NCBI GenBank assembly: GCA_019671135.1
Contig: JAHRHY010000013.1
Span: 1,785,690 to 1,849,689 of the forward strand
Length of the DNA: 64,000 nucleotides
From: Linnemannia hyalina
Lineage: Eukaryota; Mortierellomycota; Mortierellomycetes; Mortierellales; Mortierellaceae
Direction: 5' to 3'
Positions 46,120-64,000 of the stretch are shown piece after piece. How positions within the stretch are numbered: the first letter of the stretch is position 1; every line of letters starts with the position of its first letter. The notes below the pieces were generated by a model. The model was not told the origin of the DNA. It was given only the letters and a program-made list of their open reading frames with translations, and did no database searches. The translations under genes were made by a program, and so were the position numbers.

Positions 46120-46610
46120 TATTTTATGTTAAACATTACTATAGGAATAAGCGAGTTTGCCCCTGAAATGTTAAACATACTATAGGAATAAGCGAGTTTG
46201 CCCCTGAAAACGTGATTTAGCCATTTGAAACAATCTTCCGATGATCTCTCTCATTTTCGTTGATGTTGGAACATTTTCAATTTTTTTTTGATTCTGTTTC
46301 TCTCCAACCTTTGCTTTTTTCTTTTTTGTTGGATCGTTGATTGGTAGTCGACTTTCTCCTGTTCTGTATCTATCATTCACTTACTGTTTGCTACCTTATT
46401 TACTTCATTGCTTCGTTCTTGCCTTTTCCTTTTCATTGATTTGACGTCTCCTCAGCCTATTTTCATTTGTGATCATCTCTTATTTAAATTTTTTTTTCGA
46501 GGCGGGTTTTGTGATTCTTTTTCTCTTGATTTCGTCTTTATTTTTTTTTTGCTCTCTTTCCTCTTCGTTAATACTCTAGGAGTCTCAGAACTTGCCCTGA
46601 AAACGCGAAC
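46120..46610 (+). repeat. Tandem ~41-bp duplication and diverged third copy
   Basis: ACTATAGGAATAAGCGAGTT plus TGCCCCTGAAA occurs twice in tandem (46138-46168 and 46178-46208), and a related word (AACTTGCCCTGAAAACGCGA) recurs near 46588. It resembles the candidate Helitron 2 terminus at 30300 in inverse orientation. No gene. Confidence 0.5.
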
Positions 46611-48174: not shown

Positions 48175-48900
48175 TGTTGCTTGCATGGAAAAATCAATAT
48201 GCCGGCCATTGAAGCTCCCTGTCGCGTCGTTCCCTATGATCGGTCGACCCTTGGCACGATCAGTTGATCCTTGGGCGCAGTTGAATGAGCCCAAGACAAT
48301 TAATTAGCATTGCTCACAATCACATATATATATCCCATAGTACCCCAAATAGTTTGATCCTTACCTAGTAACTTGAATAATACTTTGTCTACACCTTGAA
48401 AACCCATATCTGACTCCCTATTCCCTTTGTTCTCTTCCTCCACCTCTCTTCCTGATCCTGCCTAAGAAAAGGTCAACTCTGCCTTGTTCTAGTCTAGATT
48501 CTCGACATTACTAGGTCAAACAACTTTGACCTGTTTCTTATCCTTTCTGTTTCCCTGTTCCTATAACCCTCCCTCCTACCCTACAATGACACCCGAAGAA
48601 CGACAAGCAGCCGATGAGGCCTTTACCACCCTCCAGAACCGTGTTCTCGCTCTCGAGGAAACCCTTGAAAGACACAGAGAGATTCTTGATCTTTTCCTCT
48701 CTCACAAGGATTTTTTTGCCCAGCTCTCCACCCACTTGGAACCAAGATTCATTAACCTTGAAAAGTCCCTCTCGTCTCTGGAGGATGTGGTTAGACGTGA
48801 TGAACTCGATCGTGCCCTGGCTACCCAGCGCGATAACATTCTTGCCAGTATAAAAGTTATGGTCGACGTTTCTCCCTCCCGCTCATCCAAAAAAGAATTT
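48175..48900 (+). mobile_element. LTR-like leader and truncated coiled-coil Gag of an LTR retrotransposon
   Basis: 48175-48585 looks like LTR and leader (starts TGTTGC, TATA-like CATATATATATCCC at 48322-48335). An ATG at 48586 opens MTPEERQAADEAFTTLQNRV, a charged coiled coil typical of Gag N-termini. The frame continues to about 48895, where sequence changes to the repeats below; the remaining codons to 48942 are not Gag-like. Partner LTR and pol are absent. The assignment rests on layout, not on a conserved domain. Confidence 0.45.
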
Positions 48901-49500
48901 CTTACAATACTCTGTAAATTAAATGTTTACAAGGGTGTATGAATGAACGTGTACAATGAGTAAAGATTCGATGAAAGGGGTCTTTTACATTAGTGTAAGG
49001 CGCACTCGACGAGTGAATAAACACACATAGGTAAGCATTTCATAAAATGAAGGTCGTACAACCCAGTAAGGCTCTGGTTTTTTTGGAATGTTTACAATGG
49101 TGTATCAATTAGCCCCAAATCCATTTTTTACATACATGTAGGAACATACAGAATCGCCTTTTCTTACCCCATTGTAAACAAAGCCCGATTCTGCCTCCTT
49201 TACAACTGAGTAAGGATTACAGCAGAATAGAGGAGGTTTCTATTTGCCGACAATTGGTCTAATCCTGGCTTGACCAGCGCTGCTGGATGCCTTAAGCGTC
49301 ATTTGACTAGGCGACTCTTATCTGCGAACTGTCCATTTTTTTTTGCTTCTTTGATTTGACAGAAAGCAACAAAAGGTGTTTGACGCCTTGAGTGTCCATT
49401 TTACTGGTGAAATTGTTTTTGTCTTGAGGATGCTAGCCATCTTGACCTGACTTTTACATACTTTTTTACACTCATTTTTACACCCGTTCATACTTGAACC
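48900..49500. repeat. Degenerate dispersed repeats (TTTACAANGGTGTA / ACAANNNAGTAAG words)
   Basis: GTTTACAAGGGTGTAT (48926), GTTTACAATGGTGTAT (49091), TACAATGAGTAAAGATT (48952), TACAACCCAGTAAGGCTC (49058) and TACAACTGAGTAAGGATT (49201) are related words on the plus strand. No gene. Confidence 0.45.
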
Positions 49501-50642
49501 TGGCCAGAGTCGAGACACAAATTAGCCTCATCTTCCAGGCCTCTTCTGCACATGAACCGTCATTCGCTTTGTCTTCTTTTCAGATCTCGTCTCTTTCTTC
49601 ATTCTCTCTTTATATTCAAACACAAGGAAACAAGGCCAAATCAACTGTTCCACCAAGCTCAGGATCCTATACAGTCCTTGTTTGCTCGTTTGTTTCTTTG
49701 TCAAATATGTCATACAGGGCAAATAAAATTAGCAAAATATAGTTTATTCTTCGAAGTATCTTATGCCTTGCCGTCCGTGTAATTCTGCACTCAAAGAGGA
49801 GGTGACTACAGGGAGAGGTGCCAAGGACCTGATTGTGCATCTAAAGGTAGAAGAGAATAAGAATTGGTGAGAGATGAATGGTAGAAGGGGAGGTTAAAGG
49901 AGGACAGAGGGAAGGTGAAGGGGAGTAGAGGGGAGCAGCTAGAGGGGAGTAGAGGGGAGCAGCTAGAGGGGGGTAGAGGGAAAGGGGGAAGGGCGGTAAG
50001 AGAAAGAAAAGAGTGAAGGAGAAAGGGAGACAAGGGATAACGTGCGTGGAGGGAATGGGGGGACGGATGGAGGGATAAAGAGGAAGAGGACAGTTGAGTG
50101 TCGTGAGGCGGTATAGTGAATATGAATAATGCCGATTACGACAACAGAGAAAAGGAAAATGGAACAGAAGGGTGGAAAAGTCCAATTCGGATTGCACCTC
50201 TTTTTAAAAGGGTGTAAGAATTCTCGACAGTTGAGCTGTGTACAATGAGTCGTGTTCTGATGACAGTCGTCCCTCTCTCCCCTTCCTCTCCGCTCCCTGT
50301 ATCTCTCATTTCGTAAACTTGCATCCGTGCACACGGGTGCTTCGAAAAGATAGAAAACAGAGAAAGGCAAGCGATACTAATCACCTGCATGCTCTTTTCT
50401 TGCCCACACAATTATACATAAGAAAAACAATTAAGCAAAAACAACAGGGATGAGGTAGCAGGAATGAGTGGTTAAGTTAAGGAACAACCACCTCCACCAT
50501 CAATCCAACAGAAAAACAAAAGATGGTGAGGGACAGAACGAGAGGAAGTCAAGGAGGGACGATGCAAGATTTCAAATAGACAACTTCCTCCAACTCGTGT
50601 TATAAAAAAAGAGAAAATTGGGCGAAAACATGTGCTTACGTC

Positions 50643-50677
<35 letters not shown>

Positions 50678-50980
50678 TTTTCTTCCTTTACAAAGTGGTC
50701 AAAGCATAACGGCGCGAATGGGCCTCCATAACCTTATACTTTTCTTAGGCCTGGATCTTGATAGAAACAACAAGGTGTACGACCAAGGACGAATATCCCC
50801 AAATGAAAAGCTAGTGCGGGTGAGAGAGAGGGCGAAAGGCAAGCTCGTGAGAACTCAGAATACGAACCTTGCAGACTAAGAGACCTGGGACCAAAGGGTG
50901 TATGATGTGATGTATGCATGTACGAGCCTTGATGAGTATTTTTTTTTCTTTCAATTATGTTTGAGTGGAATCCTTTCCCC
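49500..50980. other. Intergenic low-complexity DNA left of the large transposon
   Basis: No credible gene. AGAGGGGAGCAGCT/AGAGGGGAGTAG units are tandem at about 49915-49976, and a run of ~33 Ts lies at 50648-50680. Confidence 0.5.
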
Positions 50981-51243
50981 TGTTGCGGTACGGGGTTTTT
51001 ATTTCTATTTTACCCCGTCTTTTTATGTAACGAAGAAGTACTGCTAGCGACCACATCACCACATGGCAGATGGTCGCTGCTCAACTACCACCTCCGTGAT
51101 TGTTTATAATAATTATCATCTCCGTGATTATTTACCACCTCTGTGATTAGCTATCACCTCCGTGGTTAAATATCACTCCAGTGGTGTAAAACAATAAAAC
51201 AACTCTTTTCTTCTCGTTGACTTAGACCCCATACTTTCCGCCC

Positions 51244-52127
51244 CTTATTTTCCTTGACTCTGGTCCAGCAATTGCATGGCCGATATGGGCGATACCAACC
51301 GGTATCGCCATATGTTTGCTCGCAATCACGTGCATAACACGCTCGGCCTCGGCCCTCGATGAAAAAGGAGATGGAAGTGTGTGCGTGTGTGTGTGTGTGT
51401 GTGTGTGCGTGTGTGTGTGTGAGAGAGAGAGGGCGAGACAGAGAGGACATGAATGACTGAGGGACTCGAAAGAGAAAAGGGTGTGAGAAGTATGGGGGTA
51501 GAATTAACGAGAAGAAAGAGTGTGTTTTCTTTATTTTGCACCACAAAGCAGATAATAAGCAGTATCGGCTGTGTGGCGTGATCGGTTGAGCGTTTCTTCG
51601 TTAAATAAAAAGGGATAAATAAAAATAAACCCGTACCACAACAGGTGCACATGTTTGCACAGGCCCTTCATTGATTTTCCTTCCACTTTCTTGACCACAT
51701 CCTCTTTCCTTTATTCCCTCGCTTGCCTCTTTTTTTTTTCTTTGATTCTGGCGAAGCAACTGCTTGGCCGATATCAGCAATACCCAATTGGTATCACCAT
51801 CTATTTACTCACAATCACTTACGTAACACGCTCGTTCGCGGCTCTCCATGAAAAAGGAGATGGAAGTGTGTGCGTGTGTGTGTGTGAGAGAGAGAGGGCG
51901 AGATAGAGAGGACAAGAATGACTGAGAGACTCGAAAGAGAAAAGGGTGCACATGTTTGCACGGGCCCTTCATTGATTTTCCTTCCTCTTTCTTGACCACA
52001 TCCTCTCCCCTTTATTCCCTCGCTTGCCTCTTTTTTTTTTCTTTGATTCTGGCGAAGCAACTGCTTGGCCGATATGAGTAATACCCAATTGGTATCGCCA
52101 TCTATTTACTCACAATCACTTACGTGA
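51244..52127 (+). repeat. Left inverted arm of the large transposon, tandem ~301-bp units
   Basis: Built from three related units. Units 2 (51645-51945) and 3 (51946-52250) are 301 bp apart. Each has GGTGCACATGTTTGCAC, a T-rich run, a short palindrome (GCCGATAT...AATACCCAATTGGTATCGCC), AACACGCTCG, GGAGATGGAAGTGTGTGCG, a (GT)n tract and GAGAGAGAGGGCGAGA. Unit 1 has a perfect hairpin GGCGATACC/GGTATCGCC (51288-51296, 51301-51309) and an extra block 51484-51644 ending in the inverted terminal motif. Confidence 0.9.
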
Positions 52128-53059
52128 CGCGCTCGTTCGCGGCTCTCCGTGGAAAAGGAGATAGAAGTGTGTGCGTGTGTATGTGTGAGAGAGAGAGCGC
52201 GAGACAGAGGGCGAGACAAAGAGGAGGAAAGTGACAGAGACTTGGAACACGATAGCGTGTGCATATTGACATGTATCTCCCATTGATTCTTCCTTCTGTT
52301 TTAAAAAATAACCGCGGCCTTTTTTTTCATTCTATTCCATTTTCTATCGGACATATTCTTTATTCTGATTCTGCATCCTTCACACTCCTTGAGCTCCATC
52401 AAATTCAAACCTACATGCGGCGCAAGCATACGGCATTTAAGGCAGCTGCATTTTTACAAGACCGTTGATTCATCTAGTAGATTGACACCAGTTTCTCTGT
52501 CTATTTTGTCCTCCATTCCCTTGACTCATTTTTTCTTTTGTCCGCCCCTCACTCTCTACCGTCCATCAAATCACCTTTTGACTTCATTTATCCTCTATCA
52601 ACTCCTCTTCTACCCTCTTTACCTTCTCCTTGTACCTTTCACCTCCCCTTTATCCCTTTCGCCTCGTCTCACCAATTACTGTTCTTTCCTACCTTTAGAT
52701 ACACAATTATATCCTTGACACCCTCCCTCTGTCCGGTTACTTCGAACCGTTCGTGCCTGCGATGCTTTTATTGTTTGAATTTGTTCCTTCCCTCCCCTTC
52801 TACTCTTATTTCATATGTATCTTTCATGTTCATGTAGAATTTCATAGACCAACAAAAGACACTTTTGCTTATGCACATACCTCACCTATTGTTTCAAAAT
52901 TGATAGTGATGTAGTACAAATAAAAACACCAGCAGTTTTATTCGTGCAAACTTGCTCATGTCACTGATGTCTTGGTCTCTTCATAGTCAACAAGTCTTGC
53001 CTTGTAATGTAACTAGTGGGATCCATAAAACAAGGTCTACTGTCCTTCGAGCGGGTTCC
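52128..53059. other. Inner flank of left arm; 3' side of the first cargo gene
   Basis: 52128-52250 finishes repeat unit 3; the rest is pyrimidine-rich with no credible gene. Confidence 0.5.
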
Positions 53060-53572
53060 TTAATGGATACGACGTTTTGTATTGTTTGTTCTTTCCGATC
53101 GGCGCCTCTTGACGAACCTTGGAGAGGAATTGCGAACGTCATTGGTATTCGATCCACGCATGTCGTACAAGGTGAAGAAGGGATGGTCGAGTTCTTGACC
53201 CGCATGCTGAAAAGGCTTTTCAAACGATAGGCTTGGTGATCGAATCGGAGGCAAAGTAACATCGGTGTCGTCTCCGGAAAACTCCTCGGAACTATCGTCC
53301 ATGTATCCAGGAGACAAGGGGGATGTTTCATCGCATCGACGTAGGCTACCAACATCAACATCCCCCAGCGACAGACCAAAGTGATCAGAGGGGTGTGCTT
53401 TTGGCTTGGTGTCGACCAGACCTTCGTCCAGAAACGCGTCTAATTCAACGACCTCCGTAGGTGAGAGCGAGAGGATAGTCATATCAGGGGCTGGCATTAG
53501 ACAGAACGAGCGATGAAGCTGAAGGACTGATCGACCTGGGCTGGAGGCACCACAATAGCAAACAAACTCCAT
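53060..53572 (-). CDS. Transposon cargo: small putative zinc-binding nuclear protein
   Basis: Family not recognised. The likely start is the ATG at 53572, giving 170 residues; the frame is open further upstream but that part is low-complexity hydrophobic and lacks support. N-terminus MEFVCYCGASSPGRSVLQLH followed by RSFC gives a compact C-x-C...H...C cluster that could bind zinc. The middle is acidic and Ser/Asp-rich (MDDSSEEFSGDDTD), and the C-terminus is strongly basic (RFVKRRRSERTNNTKRRIH), a likely nuclear localisation signal. It lies inside the transposon arms, divergent from the transposase gene, so it is probably an accessory transposon protein (DNA binding or regulation, by inference). 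Confidence 0.55.
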   Translation of the reverse strand: MEFVCYCGASSPGRSVLQLHRSFCLMPAPDMTILSLSPTEVVELDAFLDEGLVDTKPKAHPSDHFGLSLGDVDVGSLRRCDETSPLSPGYMDDSSEEFSGDDTDVTLPPIRSPSLSFEKPFQHAGQELDHPFFTLYDMRGSNTNDVRNSSPRFVKRRRSERTNNTKRRIH

Positions 53573-54733
53573 TGATTTGCTAGCCTTGCGGACAAATATC
53601 TCAGTAAGTGGAGATTGCGCGGTGGGGTGGTTGTTTTTGAGAGACAGTGAGTAGGGGGTGTGATAGTCGTGAAAATGAAGCATTTTTTTTTCAATGATGA
53701 GAGGAGAATGAGGTCGCGCTGGCCACTTCATAGCGCAGTGGTAGTATGTGCAGGTGGGGAGGATGTTGACCATATTTTTTTGTTTTAAAAAGTGAAGGAT
53801 CAGAAGAAGAAAAAGTTGATGGTATCTACATGGAATGAACATTGGTCTCTTTATACAGTCCTGAAGAGCATAGACATTCAAGGCAGCTTTTTTCTTCGTC
53901 TTGTCAAGTGTTAAGTATATCCTTAAGCACCACTTTCTGGGTTTTTGCTGTTGCTATTGCCTAAAGTACTTACGTTAGCGCAAATGGGATGATCGATGTA
54001 CTTAGGCGATCAAGCCCTCATATTCAACCCCACTCTGGTAAGTAAGAGGTAATCCTGTTGGTTCCTGGGTATTGGCCTTTTTGTTCCTATAATGCAAGCT
54101 ATTCAAAAAAAATGCAACTGCATGGTAAGTCAACGCTCGTGGAAAAAGCGATTGCTAATTACTGATTAAGATGGTGCTAAAAGCCCAAGAGCACCACCCT
54201 TCCGGAGATCTTTTTCTTTGGATAAACTAAAGCCAGATTGACTTTTTCACGCCTATAGTTACTTAGGACAAGGGTCATATTCGGAGTCACCCTTGCAGTA
54301 AAAAGGAGCTTCGCCTAGTCAATGAAGGATTATGTTTGTTTGCTTATTTAAAAAAAAAAAAGAATCAAGTGCGAGTTACTATTATACCTACTTCAAATGA
54401 ATACAACCATAGCACGACTAAGCTATTTCTCACATTGCAATCGGTGAAGAATAATAGAGGTGCAAGCGCGCTTGCTAAAACGCCAAAATTCTGGCTATCA
54501 TTGGGTAGACTATAAAAACAATGCTTCATAAGTAAAATTCGCCAATTTGTAAATTCTTACAACCATAACAACACCACCACTATACCAACACCACTGCTAA
54601 TACTACCATTAGTACTACCACTCTCTCCATTCATGTAATGATTTTCTGCAGTTTTTGGTACTTCACGTTTGAAACTAATTGTACACAGCAATCGTCTGAT
54701 ATCCCTACCCTTGCATCTTTCATTACCAAAAGC
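53573..54733. other. Divergent intergenic region between cargo gene and transposase gene
   Basis: Likely holds both promoters. AT-rich. A (CACCAC/TACCA)-rich stretch lies at 54575-54615. No ORF of interest. Confidence 0.45.
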
Positions 54734-57700
54734 ATGCCCTCGATTATCAACTCCGCTTCGACCCCAATCGACGTTGACGCTTTGCCGCGGTTGCAGTCTG
54801 ATGCGGCTTGGATTTATGGAAAGATCTGGCGAAACCGTATTCCTTGTGCCCAGCTCCAAGAAGTGAACGATTTCCCTCAGTTTCCCTCGACCCGTAACAC
54901 GGGTGAGCTACAGCATTGCACTACTTTGCCGGCAACAGTCCTTAACCAGGAGAGCCTTGCAGTTTTGAGGACCATTCCCAATCTCCAGTCGTACACCGCG
55001 ACCTTTAACAAGTTCAAGAACACCAACAACAACCTCGGCCTCTGGATTAACATTGGGTCGACCTTTGTCCCCTTCCGCGTCTCCAAGGAAATAGACTTTG
55101 TCTTCTTGAAGGAAGTAGTCCAGTCTGGCTGCCTTATTGAGCATCTTCACCGAGCGCGCCGTTGGATGAGGAACTCTGTTGCTGCGTTGAATCCATCCTT
55201 TTTTGAGTGGTACCAGCAGCAGATGAAGATTATTCGCATTGATGACCCGCTGTTTTTTCTTGGTCTGGAGCCGGTTTCCTTCGCTTCCCTTCTCCCTCTT
55301 GCCGGCCAAGAGTGGATGACCTCAACCATTCTGGAGGCAATTATGGGCGATTTTGAGGTCCGATACGGATTTTACAACAGCAACACCAACCTGTTTATTT
55401 CGCCTAATAGGCTGTCTGATTGGATGCGGGAGCACCCTAAGTTAGGCAACAAGACCTTTTACAACTGGAATGTCGATGGTCTTGGAAACGGAAGCTATGA
55501 CGCCGTCTATTCCATAGTCTACCTAGACAGCCACTGGGGAGTGATCAAGTTGGATATGGTTTCGTGCACAGTTTATGTTGGAGATGGAATGCGTTTTTCG
55601 GACAGCCGATACTCCGGCGCCGTCCATGTCCTCAAGGCCTGGGTTAGTTTGGGGGTATCCAGCCTTCAGTCGAAAAAATGGACTAGAACGAATATTCAAC
55701 GCTTGCACCAACCTCGGCAGTCGGACAGCAGCTCGTGTGGCGTAATTGCCGCACATATGATCGAGAACGATATCACAGGTCAGGAGTCTATAACCACCTG
55801 GACAGAAAAAGATAATGTCAAACACCGTGCCAAGTATTTGGCTCGATTGATGGGCTTTGACAAGGTAAAAAAATGAGAATTTAGCTTGTGCCTTTTGTAG
55901 TCGTACACAAAAATCAAAATACTTGTGTACTCTTGTTTAACAGACCTTCAATTTTTTGTAGCCCAAGATTTCTCTTGACACAAAGGACAGCCAACTCAAA
56001 ATGGAAAAGATGGCAATGGAGGCCGCGTTTGTCGAGACTCCCATTTGTTGCAAGAACAAAGCCGAACCCACATCTGCTTCCTTTGAGGCCTCTCCGGGCA
56101 CAGAGCAGCAACCAGTTCTTCAGTCCAAGGTAATGAAAAAAAATCGCAACCAAAAAAAGATAATAATCAAGAAACCAAGAAAAAAAAACACCCAGGCTCA
56201 CTCTTTTTATATTTTTATTTTTATTTTTGAAACATGTAACGTGCTTCTCAACGTAGAATCTCTCCCCGACCTCCAGCAACTCAAAGAACAGTGTTAAATC
56301 GTTAGACTCACTCATCGCCTCCCCTAAAACACCGCTGACTACGCTTCCCAGCCCTTTGCTGCAAAAGGTACCTTAATGTCGCTCAAAACAACAACCCAAC
56401 AGAGTATGAAGTGACGTGACCATTTTGCTAACCTTTTTTTTCCATGGTTTTTTTAGGCTAAGGAACTTGGCGACAAATTCGAGAGCATGTTCTCTCATAA
56501 CAACCTCGAAAAGGAGGTAACATAAAATCAAGACGGTGCTTTCATTTCATTTTGGCATTCTGCCCTATCGCATTTGTGTATTCAATGCCTGTACCTCTTT
56601 CTCCTCTATCATTCTTTTTTATTAGGGTGAACATTGGTCGGACAATGCTTTTGCTGACTCGGATGAACAGGAAACGTTCAAGGAGGATGATGAAGACGAT
56701 GACGAGGCCGAGGACCAGGATCAGGACAAGTTGTATGACGGTGAGACAGAAGAGGAGTTATATTCGTCGTTCAATAAGAATACGATACATCTTGAGGCTC
56801 TGAGAGAGTCACGGCAGAAAAAGCTGGAAGGAAATGATCTCGACATGTTGAAGCGCGACACTCCTTCTCATTCCAACAATAACACCAATACCTCACCAAC
56901 TACTCTTTCCAGTAATCAAAACAAAAACATCACTTCGTCTTACAATCACACAGCAGCTGTCAGTGCCGTTCTTTACAACACATCCTCAACACCTGTATTT
57001 TCCGCTCGGGAGCGTATGAGGGAGGATGAGAGCATGGATGAGATCGACGAGGACGAGTGCGGATATGAAGAGGATGGGTCGGTTCAAGTTCCGGTCAAGG
57101 TTGGCGATGTTGCTAGCGAACTGCTGGTGGGCTGGGAGCCCACCGTTCACCATTGTTTTGGATCAAGGTCGGCTGCGGACGTATTTTTGAGGTCTTGGGC
57201 ACTGAAAAAGGGGCACAAGCTTATAATTCGCACCTCGACTGGCAATGCCGGTAAGCAATATTGGTTTGTACATGTTATGTCAAGTGTGAGATAGAGTTGA
57301 GCAAGAAATCGAAATCGCAAACCTAATCGTCCTTTTTCATTTCTAATATCATTTTTTCTACTTCCTTATCCTCTTTCCTCACCACTAAATAGTCAAGTAC
57401 GTTTGCAGCTTCTTTGGGTTCTATAAATCCAAGAAAGTTGCCGACGAGGATCGACAGCACAACAAGCGTGAGAGTCCACGTTGTGGTTGCCCATACGCGA
57501 TCAGCATATCTTCCCCTCTGTCCATTGCTCCTCAGTACCACATCACCTCCTTCAACCTCGATCACTGTGAGCACCAGTTCGATTTTAATCTCGGCCGAAC
57601 CAACCCCTTGACGGCCCCTATGATCGCGTCTATTGGGAAATGTGCCCAAATTCGACTGTCATACAAGCAAACACTGGACATTTTGCGTATCGAATTTCGG

Positions 57701-59879
57701 GATGCAAAGTTCTGCAAATATCAGGTATCGTTGTGGACAGTTACTGTTTGAGCGACAACTTTACATTTTGACTTAAATCAATTTTCTCATACACATTTTA
57801 TCTCTATACAAAAAAAAAAAAAAAAGTCCTCAACCGTCTAAAGGAGTTTAGGACTTTACTCCATGCAATCCAGATTCCTCAGACGGTCCAGCTCCTAATC
57901 GCTTTATGTATGAGGGCAAATCAGGAGAAGGGATGGTATATTGCCACCGATGTTGATGACAAGAACCAGCTTGTCCGGGTCTTTTGGATGACCCCAGGAC
58001 AGAGGGATCTTTTCCGTCGCTATGGTGATGTGCTAGTGCATGACAATACTTATCGCACCAATCGCCTTGGCCTCCCGCTGCACAACTTTGTGGTCGTCGA
58101 TTGTGAATTCAAGACACGACTCGTTGCGACCGCTCTATCTCGTCATGAGACAAAAGACGACTACAAATGGGTTCTCTCCAAGCTTCAAGAGGCAACCGAA
58201 GGACTACTGCCAAAGGTTATGATGGTTGATCAAGATGCGGCAATGGATAGAACGCTTCCTTTGGTGTTTCAGGGTGTCCATGTGATTAATTGCATATGGC
58301 ATATCCAGGAAAATCTGAGGAAGCATTTGTCTTGCAGATTGAAAGAGAGATACAATCACTTTTTCAGTATGTTCAAAGCCGCCTGTTGTGCCTTAACAGC
58401 CGGCGAGTTTGAACGCATCTGGGCTCGCATCCTTCAAAACTTTGGAGGAGACGGCTTTGGCATCTCTATCACCTCTACTATTACTCCTAGCTTTGATACT
58501 GCCACCATCGCCACTACCATCGTCAACGAAAACGACAGCAACAACAACCTCAACGCTCTACCCAGCCTCTCCACTCCACCCAACCTTTCCACTCCAGTAA
58601 ACGTCGCCACTTCCCACATCGCTGCTGACCCCATCTTGTCCGTACAGGAGCGTGATACTCTCGAGTCTGGCGAAGTTGGAGTACATCTTGCAAGGCTTTA
58701 CAACCGTCGTCATTTCTGGGCAGGACCATGGGTGCAAGCCTCTTTCACCGCAGGGATGCGCTCCACGCAGCGCGTCGAAAAGAACCACGATGTCCTCAAG
58801 ATGTTTCTGCATAACAGCAAGACTTCCCTATCGGATCTGTTCAAAGCGATCATGAACAAGATTGAAGATGAGATCGATCTCTTCACCATTTTGTCGAATG
58901 ATCCGAATGACGCCAGACCGGTGAGACGCTTGGGCGTCAGCGATACGACTTACGATATCTTTGGTCAAGTCCTCGATGCCAGCAAGGTATTCCTCAGCCA
59001 GTGGGCCCAAGGTCAGCTGCGAACCGAGATGGATTACTCCTTTGGCCTCAAGTTCACAGTCGTTAATTTCGGAGCGGTTCCTTATGTCCAGGATGGTGAA
59101 TTTTGCTTGGTGAGTTTTGTAATGATCCTTTGCCTTATTTTTATCATCTTTGCCTTAATTTTATCCTCTTTGCTACTTTTTCAAGCATTTTTTCCTTGGT
59201 TTATGTAACACAAAGGAAAATGCACTAATCGCTGGTTTATTCCAAACACTCCCTCCAGTCAAAACTATCCCGCGCTGAACAACTTCAGCGTGGCTCGGTT
59301 CATGCTTTGCTCACGTCCATCCCCAGGCACACATCGGAAGGGGTTTTCCGTGTCTCTTCTATGGCTGACACAGGAAAAGGCACGCGCCCAGAGTATGTGA
59401 TCTTACGAACAAACCGCACCTACTTCTGTACCTGCGCTTTGCAACAGAATAAGGGCATTGTTTGTAGACATTTCTTTTGTTTGATGATGGAGGATGCACG
59501 ATTCCTTTTTCACCCTTGCATGATTCTGCCACGCTGGTACAAAGAGGGAAAACAATTTGATCCGAACCTCAAGCAACAACTCTCCGTCAAACCTTTCCTC
59601 CGTGCACAGACGGAAACAGTCAACGAGGGTGCCAGCAAAGACCCGGTCGGCACGGATCTATCCATCGACACCTTTATGGACGACCCTAACTCTATCCTTC
59701 GACCTCCACCTATTGCTCTTCATTCAACACAACCCAAAGTCCCAGGGAACAGGATCCTTATCTCCGCCAAAAGTCTCGTCAAAAACACCATTAAGCTGGA
59801 CGGGATCGCGGAGACGATGCAAGCTCTTGAAGAGGGTGCTCGCCTTCTAGTTCAACAGTCACAAGAGCTGGAACCGTAG
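54734..59879 (+). CDS. Ulp1/C48 protease - MULE transposase fusion protein, eight exons
   Basis: All junctions keep one frame: exons 54734-55864, 55962-56129, 56257-56367, 56457-56516, 56626-57250, 57393-57724, 57874(or 57883)-59109, 59259-59879; about 1427 residues from MPSIINSAS (an in-frame ATG at 54638 would add 32). Exon 1 is a C48 Ulp1-like cysteine protease: His in DSHWGVIKLD, Asp in VYVGDGM, Gln and Cys in QSDSSSCG, the complete catalytic set. Then an acidic linker; a FAR1-type zinc domain (KYVCSFFGFY...RCGCPY...HCEH); MULE transposase with D (VLVHDNTYRTN, nt 58042), D (MMVDQDAAM, nt 58228), CIWH, E (STQRVEKNHD, nt 58777); and SWIM finger CTCALQQNKGIVCRH. Introns are 89-158 bp. No lesion was found, so it may be active. 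The fusion rests on splice prediction; two adjacent genes cannot be excluded without RNA. Confidence 0.85.
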
Positions 59880-61767
59880 GCGCAGATTTGAGCAAGGGAT
59901 TGGATCTAGACAGTATAGTCGATGGAACCAAAAGTGACCGGAAAGGAGAAGGTCGTCCACGTGGAGTCAGCCTTCGCACGGTTGGAAGTCCAAGGCCATC
60001 AAGAAAGCAAGCAAGACTATTAATCACTGGTGCAGCAAGCCAAGCGACCAAGCGACCAAAGCGACCAAGGCGACCAAAGCGACACAAAGCGACCAAGGCG
60101 ACCAAAGCGACCAAGGCGACCAGTTCTACAACAGCCATGGAAATGGTGTTCGCGCTGCTGTTCAAACGAACAAGAACGGGAGACGATGATGGCAGCGACG
60201 GCGGTGATGTTGAGGAGGTAGACTTGCCAAAGAAGATGCAGAGAGGGCCAAAGTCAAAGTCCGGCGAGGGGCGAGGTTCAAGAAGGCAGAGAAGCAGGAG
60301 TATGGATGCCCCTGACCAGTAATGGTGAATGTGAAGGAAGAGAAAGGGTTGAGGAGGAGGCGAAAAATGGAGAAGGATGAAGCAAGAGAATGAAGCCAGA
60401 AGAATACTCAATTAAAGACATATGATATTATATGATTTTGTTATTTATTCAAATACAAGACTTTGACATGGTCTAAATTGAGGTTGTAAGATGGCGAAAG
60501 AAGGAAATGTTTGAGTGGGTTTGAAGAAGGGAGCAAATCAGGGATGTGTATCGTGCTGCGGGTGTTAACAGATGGGTAAAGGATGTGTCTACGGTCGTGT
60601 TTTGGCAGCGGGAGAAGGGAAGAAATGAAGAAGCGTAGGGAATTTAGGCGAAAAGTAACTGGTTTGTGGACCACGCTTTCTTTGCGGGCCCTTTATTCTC
60701 GTAGCTGCGCGCCCACCCGATATTAGTATTGGTTAGGGAAACTCTTCTTTCGACGGTTTCATATGTGCTGCTTTGTGTGATTATAAAAAAAATAAGACAC
60801 CGTTGCCGATCGTAGTTAAGGGATGGGTGGTTCTTATTCTTATTTGGAGTCTATTTTGTATTTGTCAAGGGTTTGCCGCAGGAGAAATGGATATCAAGAG
60901 GAAGCGGAGGGGGCATGTCGAGCAGTCGTCGTCATTGGTTCTTGTACATTGTTTGCTACGTTTGTACTGTGGACGACACTATCTTTTCTTTGTGGTATTC
61001 TGTGACAGGCTCCCCCCCAAGCCCAAGTAAAAGTACGGAATGTGTGCCTTTTGACTATCTTAGAATCGTAACACGCACTTGTAGACGGGTAAGGCCTGTT
61101 GATCAACTGTGTTTATGTGTCAATAGTGTACTTTTGACCGAGCTGAGTTTTACTCTCGGTATCAGAGTGGTTGGCATAGGTCGAGAGTGAATACTGAATG
61201 GGTCAACGGCACAGGGAAAGAGAACCAGTCTGCAATGTGTAAAGGCGTTGGTGCCAAGGACTTTGAAAGGAGGGTTTGTTTTTTTTTCTTTTTTGATAGT
61301 ACGCGATTTTAAGTTATTTCTCTAGAAAGTAGTACAAAGAAGCATTTGGAAGTAAACGACTACAGACGAAACTACCTCAGTGCACCATCTCCTAGTCAGT
61401 GAAAGAGCGAAAAGAAGGTGGGAGGGTAAGAAAAGAGATGGGGGAAGGGGAAAAGTGAAAAAAGAAAGGAGGAAAAGAAGGCAATTGTTGCTTTGACGAG
61501 GAAGGAGGGATGGAGGATTCGAGAGACAATACGGATGCTATCTACACCAAGGACGTTCTATGCTAGCATTGTGGACCTTAAACATTGTCTCCAATATGTT
61601 CACACAAAAAGGTTTTGCAAGAAGAGGGTTTATATTGTATTATATGGTCAAACGTAATCAGAAAAATAACAAGCATGATGGTGGGGATGAGCCGTTGTTC
61701 AGGACGACTCTTGTTGTTTGCATATAGCCTTCTCCTCCTTTACACTCTCTCCTTTGCGCACTTCCTC
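59880..61767. other. Region between transposase gene and zinc-finger gene, with 9-bp repeats
   Basis: 60043-60121 is a tandem (AAGCGACCA)n-type repeat lying in an open plus-strand frame (59888-60322) rich in Lys/Arg (RPKRPRRPKR), possibly an alternative 3' exon of the transposase; not proven. The rest (60400-61760) has no credible gene. Confidence 0.45.
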
Positions 61768-62885
61768 TCACTCCTCCGCCTCCTCCTTCACATCCTCCTC
61801 CTTATGCACTTCCCCCATCTCCTCAGCTGCATCCTCCATGTCCTGTGAGTCCTTCTTCACCTTTACTGTGTTCATTTCATTCTCTTCTCCATCCATTCCA
61901 CGCGAGAATTCCTCATTGTGGCGTGCAATAACTTGAGCCTGCGCCATGTTTCTTTCCATGCTATTTTCATACTCTGGGGACTCGGACTCTGAGATAACTT
62001 GATCGTGGTCATCAAGATGCGGGATGTAGCGTCTCGGGTCGACACCAAGCCCAAAGCGTCCATCGACAGAACTTCCTGGCATGCTGAATCCTTCCTGTGA
62101 ATCTGAGAAGAAAAAAAAAACGAAGAGTTATGTTAACTTGAGAAAATACACAGCCACATGTCTAAAGAGATCAAGTGTTTACCTGTCTGCCACCCAGGCC
62201 TCTCAAATGTGAACTTCTCGATCCTGTTAAGCAGTCCCTCAGTCATGTTCATCAGTTTCACAGTGTTGTCAAAGATCTTGTTTTGCTTGGCGGAAAGGTC
62301 CTTGTTATTATCCATTAGTTGTTTAAACGATGTCGAAAGGTCGGTCTTGAGACTATCGATGCTGTCCTCGATCTGATAGAGCCGCTCAGACCCCATCTGA
62401 CTGTACCCAAGAAGGGTCATAACGGTGTTCTGGAACCGAACCATGCCTTGCACTTGCTCCTCGTTGGAGCCGTCCATGTCGATGTCGGGCTGTAGAAATG
62501 GATTCATGGGAGCTCGATGGCCTGAACTTGCGCTTGAAGAGGCACTTGTCGCTGGGTAGGGAGCCTGACGCGCCCGCTGCTGTCGTCCTAGTTGTTGGCG
62601 GAGTAAACGGAAGCGAGCGGTGTCATCGGCACGTACAAAACGGCAGACAGCAATGTGCTTCAACACATTCTGACGAACATTGGTGGTTACTTGGCATTGG
62701 GTGGACGGACATGGATAATGATTATCGTGTTCCTCGCTGCGTTCAACCATGATATCGGGGAGTCCGGGTCGTTGAACGAGAACCGCAATCTTCTCATGGT
62801 ATCTCTTGTTATGCTCCTCGGTTTGTCCCTCCGGAGGGACCCGGCAAAGTCTTCGATCAAAGTGTGGGCAGAGAACGGTAGGCAT
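61768..62885 (-). CDS. Transposon cargo: zinc-finger / coiled-coil protein, two exons
   Basis: Exon 1 62885-62183 and exon 2 62102-61768, joined in phase 1 across an 80-bp intron (GTAAAC donor, CTTCTCAG acceptor); 345 residues from MPTVLCPHFDRRLCRVPPEG. The N-terminus has two Cys/His clusters (CPHFDRRLC...H...H and YPCPSTQCQ...HIAVC) resembling paired C2H2-like fingers. An Arg/Gln-rich helix follows, then a central coiled coil (SERLYQIEDSIDSLKTDLST...IFDNTVKLMNMTEGLLNRIE), and a Glu-rich acidic C-terminus. It is inside the transposon arms and convergent with the transposase gene. Function unknown; DNA-binding accessory factor or transcriptional regulator is plausible. No domain name is claimed. 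Confidence 0.7.
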
Positions 62886-63118
62886 CGAAGGAGTTATGAG
62901 TGGAAATGTGTTTAGAATACTTTTCTGCTGTTGTGATATGGAAGTGTTGGAATTGGTTTGCTTATGAACAGTATGAAAATAAACAGAAAAAGAAAAAGAG
63001 ATATAGATGTCGTTATTGTACGAGATTATTTTGTGGTTCGTTGGGTGTGCATTGCAAGGATAAACGCAATTCTGCTTCTTCTGATGTGGTCCTGTTGGCT
63101 TCGGCGCGGGCGAGCGTA
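62886..63118. other. Promoter side of zinc-finger cargo gene, inner flank of right arm
   Basis: AT-rich leader/promoter on the minus strand. No other feature. Confidence 0.5.
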
Positions 63119-64000
63119 CCATGTACGTGGTTGTGAGTAAATAGATGGCGATACCAATTGGGTATTACTCATATCGGCCAAGCAGTTGCTTCGCCAGAAT
63201 CAAAGAAAAAAAAAAGAGGCAAGCGAGGGAATAAAGGGGAGAGGATGTGGTCAAGAAAGAGGAAGGAAAATCAATGAAGGGCCCGTGCAAACATGTGCAC
63301 CCTTTTCTCTTTCGAGTCTCTCAGTCATTCTTGTCCTCTCTATCTCGCCCTCTCTCTCTCACACACACACACGCACACACTTCCATCTCCTTTTTCATGG
63401 AGAGCCGCGAACGAGCGTGTTACGTAAGTGATTGTGAGTAAATAGATGGTGATACCAATTGGGTATTGCTGATATCGGCCAAGCAGTTGCTTCGCCAGAA
63501 TCAAAGAAAAAAAAAAGAGGCAAGCGAGGGAATAAAGGAAAGAGGATGTGGTCAAGAAAGTGGAAGGAAAATCAATGAAGGGCCTGTGCAAACATGTGCA
63601 CCTGTGTGGTAGGGTTTATTTTTATTTATCCCTTTTTATTTAACGAAGAAACGCTCAACCGATCACGCCACACAGCCGATACTGCTTATTATCTGCTTTG
63701 TGGTGCAAAATAAAGAAAACACACTCTTTCTTCTCGTTAATTCTACCCCCATACTTCTCACACCCTTTTCTCTTTCGAGTCCCTCAGTCATTCATGTCCT
63801 CTCTGTCTCGCCCTCTCTCTCTCACACACACACACGCACACACACACACACACACACACGCACACACTTCCATCTCCTTTTTCATCGAGGGCCGAGGCCG
63901 AGCGTGTTATGCACGTGATTGCGAGCAAACATATGGCGATACCGGTTGGTATCGCCCATATCGGCCATGCAATTGCTGGACCAGAGTCAAGGAAAATAAG
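63119..64000 (-). repeat. Right inverted arm of the large transposon, cut by window end
   Basis: Reverse complement of 51244-52127 with the same unit order: partial unit 3 (to ~63300), unit 2 (~63301-63600) and unit 1 (63601-64000). The unit 2-specific word TATCAGCAATACC and unit 3-specific TATGAGTAATACC are conserved in matching places, so the two arms are more alike to each other than units within an arm. It carries the terminal motif at 63603 as GTGTGGTAGGGTTTATTTTT. Confidence 0.92.

Follow-up and report, generated by a model that had tools for sequence, protein, structure and literature searches.

A recently active, probably autonomous Mutator-like transposon with kilobase inverted arms in Linnemannia hyalina

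The right-hand part of a 64,000-nucleotide stretch of the Linnemannia hyalina genome (C5:1785690-1849689, hereafter the window) holds what is very probably a recently active and probably autonomous Mutator-like element (MULE), a DNA transposon of ~17.5 kb with inverted arms of 3,254 bp. Near-identical copies on other contigs reveal that the whole unit has moved, that its insertions produced 9-10-bp target duplications at fixed termini, that its spread is recent and that it carries a set of three genes. The largest of these joins an Ulp1-type peptidase to a MULE transposase in one coding frame after inferred splicing, and the two smaller ones, here called acc1 and acc2, encode proteins with zinc-finger-like motifs. 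The original prediction had recognized inverted arms around a transposase-protease gene and two zinc-type genes, and had proposed a fungal MULE with long arms. This proposal has held up, on the strength of a MULE domain, an Ulp1 profile match and target duplications in three insertions; the dimensions first assigned to the element have not.

Boundaries, copies and target duplications

Two inverted pairs, 51244-51632/63612-64000 (389 nt, 100% identical) and 51641-52141/63105-63605 (501 nt, 98%), are colinear, with coordinate sums of 115244-115246, just as first described. The original prediction had taken the arms to be ~0.9 kb long and the element to span ~13 kb, from ~50981 to ~64260. The arms are in fact longer. 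When the sequence outward of these pairs was aligned for ten arms, drawn from nine copy regions and two partial-match places, all ten proved near-identical across ~2.35 kb; the nine that reach the position equivalent to window base 48888 all lose the match there and continue into unrelated flanks, and the tenth (the right arm on C15, 98.8% identical over 3,076 columns to the left arm on C5) leaves its contig ~185 bp before the terminus. The left arm therefore reaches 2,356 bp farther outward than 51244 and, with its inner edge placed at 52141 from the inverted repeat, comprises 3,254 bp (48888..52141, plus strand). Of the right arm, the window holds the inner 896 bp (63105..64000, minus strand), and its outer ~2,355 bp lie past base 64000, where contig C5 stops (at 1,849,689) and the element does not. 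Because the corresponding arms on C31 and C25 extend 2,355-2,357 bp outward, the right end is predicted by analogy at ~66355, for a total of ~17,468 bp.

These terminal inverted repeats (TIRs) are 98-100% alike in their inner parts and unlike over their outermost ~30 bp, such that each copy end can be assigned to one of two types. Terminus A (CAAAAAAGAATTTC...), which in the window occupies 48888..48918 (31 bp, plus strand), occurs at C5, C15, C27 and C43, and terminus B (CAACGCGGAAATG...) at C13, C14, C25 and two places on C31. Searching the genome with these 30-31-base patterns and up to three mismatches returned B at 10 places (all exact), A at 9 (6 exact) and control patterns at none. A single-strand hairpin at the terminus showed no excess over shuffled sequences (z -0.66). 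The left terminus sits inside an open frame (48526-48942), and the insertion may have disrupted a gene or another transposon's gene.

Within the left arm, a 301-bp unit is tandemly repeated in 1.9 copies (51644..52209, plus strand), with mirror copies in the right arm within 63105-63602, and a 12-bp motif, ACCTCCGTGATT, recurs in four spaced copies with at most two mismatches (51090..51167, plus strand), a candidate protein-binding cluster; a fifth match lies on the minus strand at 60536. A repeat scan found the rest of the arm largely free of tandem arrays, with only the 301-bp unit and a few short repeats. Judging from their sequence, the motif cluster and the 301-bp units could be binding sites.

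The outer of the two pairs first described (389 bp) has at least 77 matches in its own genome, 14 of them full-length at 99-100%, counts that are lower bounds from scoring the best 40 of 146 candidates. The full-length matches lie on C5, C13, C14, C15, C25, C27, C31 and C43; the remainder are partial or resemble short repeats. We compared the flanks of nine ends in all 36 pairings, leaving out the C15 right arm, which lacks a terminus. Three pairs have an exact target duplication in common: ATCTTGGACT at C27 and the C31 copy near the contig start, CTTGGACGAG at C25 and C43, and GTCTTGGTA at C15 and the C31 copy near the contig end (10, 10 and 9 bp, respectively). Each pair unites one A and one B end, as expected for the two sides of a single insertion, and the other 33 pairs have no exact duplication of 4-15 bases in common. 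Since the paired contigs overlap via the same element, the nine contig copies correspond to about six insertions: three paired, plus C5, C14 and a truncated copy on C13. Attempts to pair further ends, with C5 and C14 assigned to a single insertion, or with the C13 B ends at 531186 and 596485 as the limits of a single 65-kb element, failed on mismatched flanks (in the latter case by eye). All three target duplications contain CTTGG, which is absent on either strand from the ten flank bases adjoining the C5, C14 and C13 ends; this is only a hint of a target preference.

Relative to the window copy, the others carry 0-5 substitutions each over up to 10.86 kb of internal sequence, which points to recent movement; the C13 copy aligns over 6.9 kb only, with 4 substitutions. 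The search of the same genome that the original prediction had suggested, for further copies with all three genes, was successful: the other copies hold the same gene set, the exception being C13, which lacks acc1 and the peptidase. The two zinc-type genes thus travel with the element, as had been proposed. At C14:870098-885205, a B terminus stands where gene order predicts A, indicating that the interior of this copy is inverted relative to the others, through recombination between the arms or through misassembly.

Older remnants of the family exist as well, among them diverged ends at C5:199.8 kb, C44 and C13:596 kb and, on C49, a derivative with a deletion (94-96% identical). A short element of 545 bp at C33:2948514-2949058 has B termini at both ends, and its flanks are also inverted repeats; a second B end on C33, at 2939187, has the same flank. 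Outside the element, the window contains a repeat with a 41-bp unit (46126-46209). By eye, this unit is similar to the first part of the sequence near 540993 at which the C13 copy breaks off, perhaps another mobile element.

The transposase-peptidase gene and its relatives

The transposase gene (54638..59879, plus strand) was spliced by hand at GT-AG borders into eight exons (54638-55864, 55962-56129, 56257-56367, 56457-56516, 56626-57250, 57393-57724, 57844-59109 and 59259-59879) encoding 1,469 amino acids. Its seventh exon (57844..59109) contains the MULE transposase domain (PF10551; E 6.1e-19, 68.7 bits against a Pfam cut-off of 27.6), and Pfam also returned a ZSWIM1-3 RNaseH-like match (E 1e-14). 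Plausible residues for a DDE triad were picked out by eye in the transposase translation only, as was a SWIM-type CxC...CxH motif in the last exon (59259..59879). Among the best 8000 scored candidates, the only homologs of the transposase were two Citrus FAR1-related proteins, a result that says little about absence elsewhere.

The Ulp1/C48 peptidase region (54998..55873, plus strand) was recognized by profile comparison. A profile of five sequences, namely that of the window and four relatives from the same genome (two near-identical), matches yeast Ulp1 (1euv, E 4.6e-6) as well as SENP1/2/3/5. In the alignment, H, W, D, Q and C are invariant in all five sequences, again with two near-identical, and we take the His, Asp, Gln and Cys to be the catalytic positions.

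The 432-amino-acid MULE frame runs its full length free of stops at eight of nine places (broken in C27), and the peptidase frame is whole at six of eight (interrupted in the first C31 copy and in C25; C13 has none). By their target duplication, C27 and the first C31 copy belong to a single insertion, yet a different gene is broken in each, which points to assembly error as the source of at least some of these breaks.

The same pairing of domains recurs elsewhere in the genome. A peptidase search found ten further places beyond the present family, seven followed downstream by a MULE match (C7, C25:2.4 kb, C28 twice, C50, C2 and C5:1.66 Mb) and three without (C12, at a contig edge, C17 and C49). 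Of these seven, five make up a second Ulp1-MULE family whose copies are near-identical to one another (C7:1776571-1780451, C25:2388-6268, C28:14346-18128 and 83088-86967, and C50:2307486-2311252). It is 27% identical to the present family in the peptidase and 42-43% in the MULE domain, and its peptidase region likewise lies upstream, beginning ~2.7 kb before the MULE region. The union of Ulp1 and MULE domains is therefore not a one-off, and two divergent families of this genome have retained the fusion.

The accessory genes acc1 and acc2

Both accessory genes lie on the minus strand and encode proteins with two zinc-finger-like motifs: acc1 (53060..53773), with a start codon picked by eye, specifies 237 amino acids, and acc2 (61768..62885; exons 62885-62183 and 62102-61768) specifies 345. 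The acc1 frame is complete at all eight places and that of acc2 at eight of nine (broken in C43). The two-motif layout is common to both proteins, with 8 invariant columns over 11 aligned sequences, and acc1-like and acc2-like profiles match each other weakly (hhalign E 0.0019, probability 14%). This layout suggests, and does not prove, that acc1 and acc2 have a common origin.

Homology searches returned seven proteins for acc2 (1066 candidates) and four for acc1 (429 candidates), with one common to both, and the named homologs all come from Linnemannia or Mortierella. Identities run from 76-91% for Linnemannia records to 65-70% for two Mortierella records, and the nearest acc2 homolog, from L. 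elongata, is 91% identical over 97% of acc2. A predicted L. gamsii protein (P0007, on a contig under 4 kb) unites parts of acc1 and acc2, and homologs of the two genes therefore seem to lie close together in that species.

Within L. hyalina, acc2-like genes form tandem clusters at C16:543747-548373 and 607906-615819, whose fetched members match no Pfam zinc-finger family; a weaker acc2-like match lies at C14:317 kb. Matches to acc1 occur on C18 and C21, with weaker ones on C17, C19 and C1. C16 has none of the 23 MULE matches in the genome, and no transposase match was found near the C18 locus, C14:317 kb or three C16 loci (2.3-3.3 kb examined at each). The acc1 relative on C21 (37% identity) adjoins a remnant of a transposase C-terminus (35% over 95 amino acids, pairwise E 1.3e-8). 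Given that relatives, including the C16 clusters, occur without a MULE, the accessory genes look as though they were recruited from a host family. By analogy, it is possible, though we put it a little below even chances, that acc1 and acc2 act as DNA-binding helpers or regulators drawn from such a host zinc-finger family.

Alternative explanations, mechanism and known systems

Several observations weigh against an active, autonomous element of this composition. None of the copies has been assembled in full, and the window copy has no partner flank, its right end and target duplication lying outside the contig. Each copy differs from that of the window by 16-36 indel events, of which 4-18 adjoin a run of at least two identical bases, such that homopolymer errors are not supported as their source. 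Some reading frames are broken among the contig copies. The transposase gene model is a manual prediction, and the acceptor of exon 7 was chosen to preserve the frame, 17 bases beyond a first candidate that broke it. A FAR1 match stays under the Pfam cut-off (E 0.0023), and the peptidase on its own misses it too (E 0.016-0.032); a phmmer search of the PDB with the single peptidase sequence gave chance matches only, and its predicted structure is poor (predicted local distance difference test, pLDDT, 34.5). Neither acc1 nor acc2 has a Pfam match at E up to 1, and their putative accessory role is argued from analogy.

If the arms were an assembly inversion or a satellite, with no transposon between them, we might suspect as much from the contig map: eight of nine contig copies meet a contig end or come within ~2.2 kb of one (the exception being C13), and four contigs (C5, C14, C27 and C43) end at the identical arm base, an assembly effect. 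Yet the flanks differ while the boundary is sharp and common to all, three target duplications are exact, the same genes lie between the arms, and older, diverged ends occur elsewhere. This explanation, which the original prediction had named as one that would overturn it, is thus contradicted on boundary, duplications and gene content, and we consider it extremely improbable. The element itself helps account for the breakpoints: the target duplications in common place the contigs in the order C27-C31-C15 and C25-C43, joined across element copies. Four consecutive TTAGGG units, the only telomere repeat tried, were not found, and target duplications fit the contig ends better than telomeres do. 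Scarcely more probable is a composite, in which other repeats extended the arms and only a part of the unit is mobile. Such an origin might be read into the 301-bp tandem unit, the short repeats in the arms and a TIR length far above the 14-500 bp given in the available part of a published survey (PMC6446971), but the duplications lie at the outer ends, which indicates that the entire unit was mobilized in three insertions.

A more serious alternative concerns the accessory genes, which could be captured host genes carried passively, with no role in transposition. In keeping with this, relatives occur in the C16 tandem clusters without a MULE match and singly on C17, C18 and C19; moreover, the C7 copy of the second Ulp1-MULE family has no two-finger frame in the parts fetched, 2.5 kb on its downstream and 2.3 kb on its upstream side, and the latter contains four single-motif matches that look like chance. 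Against it are the homologs of both genes in Linnemannia records and the acc1 relative beside a transposase remnant on C21, which makes the pairing look old. Their complete frames point the same way, although these are expected of young copies anyway. On balance we regard passive carriage as unlikely. The original prediction had described these proteins as cargo; from their homologs in Linnemannia and Mortierella and the wider gene family of this genome, they may be helpers rather than passengers.

With respect to the mobile element that we favor, its parts suggest how it might work. The FAR1 and SWIM parts of the transposase would bind the conserved ~30-bp termini, and the MULE domain would cut the element out and reinsert it via a staggered cut of 9-10 bp. 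The peptidase could strip SUMO-like modifiers or process a protein, thereby aiding transposition or expression; acc1 and acc2 might serve as DNA-binding helpers or regulators; and the long arms may carry promoters and binding sites. A more elaborate scheme, speculative and rather doubtful at present, would make the element a fungal counterpart of the plant MULEs that bear Ulp1 plus a helper: acc1 and acc2, drawn from two branches of a Mortierellaceae two-finger family, would serve as sequence-specific activators or anti-silencing factors at the motif clusters of the arms, while the transposase-linked Ulp1 would remove SUMO from silencing proteins.

Comparison with known systems places the element on a familiar type with an unusual build, in which kilobase arms, an Ulp1-transposase fusion and twin recruited zinc-finger genes are combined. 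MULEs are present in Mucorales and ubiquitous in fungi, according to the accessible part of PMC7928374. In the survey of 1,631 MULEs, whose available text gives TIRs of 14-500 bp and whose table, in the part available, runs from a few bp to 613 and 640 bp (PMC6446971), the longest TIR is only about one fifth of the 3,254-bp arms described here. Mutyl of Yarrowia lipolytica, as summarized in that source, is likewise a fungal MULE with a 9-10-bp duplication, two open reading frames (one antisense) and a zinc motif (PMC6446971). It differs in its 22-bp TIR, its single extra reading frame and a table row that notes no peptidase, whereas the present element has 3,254-bp TIRs, two extra genes and an Ulp1 domain fused to the transposase.

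A composite arm structure is known from Tm1, a Foldback-type MULE of root-knot nematodes, whose arms contain tandem repeats, whose outermost bases are asymmetric and lie outside the inverted repeat, and whose target duplication is 9 bp (PMC3169594, available portion). Unlike the present element, Tm1 belongs to nematodes, its transposase-bearing copy is 2,593 bp long with a Phantom-like transposase of 496 amino acids, and the accessible portion of its description mentions neither Ulp1 nor extra genes (PMC3169594). Foldback-type arms consist of many variable short tandem repeats; here there is one 301-bp unit in 1.9 copies and a few short repeats. The giant cargo elements of fungi known as Starships carry a tyrosine-recombinase captain gene, and the MULE transposase and TIRs point away from an element of that type. 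In the open-licence literature, no paper on such a Mortierella element was found by title or opening of the abstract, which is weak evidence of absence.

The closest parallels in gene content are VANDAL, Kaonashi (KIU) and other Ulp1-bearing MULEs of plants, which, as far as the available parts of their descriptions go, also have three genes, an Ulp1 domain and an accessory protein (PMC13317346, PMC2528002). In these plant elements, Ulp1 stands in either orientation to the transposase, in grapevine sometimes in the same frame, and VANC has been linked to anti-silencing (PMC13317346, PMC2528002). KIU elements, in contrast, are MULEs of the non-TIR kind and have their Ulp1 within a VANC-type gene, which in KI-MULEs runs opposite to mudrA (PMC13317346, PMC2528002); in the present element, a single inferred gene places Ulp1 on the N-terminal side of the transposase, the arms are of kilobase size, and acc1 and acc2 lack a Pfam match. 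The accessible part of PMC13317346 describes the function of the Ulp1 domains of plant MULEs as unknown. With genes that look complete, copies that are almost identical and accessory proteins outside the Pfam families, this fungal MULE would offer a recently active system in which that question becomes testable.

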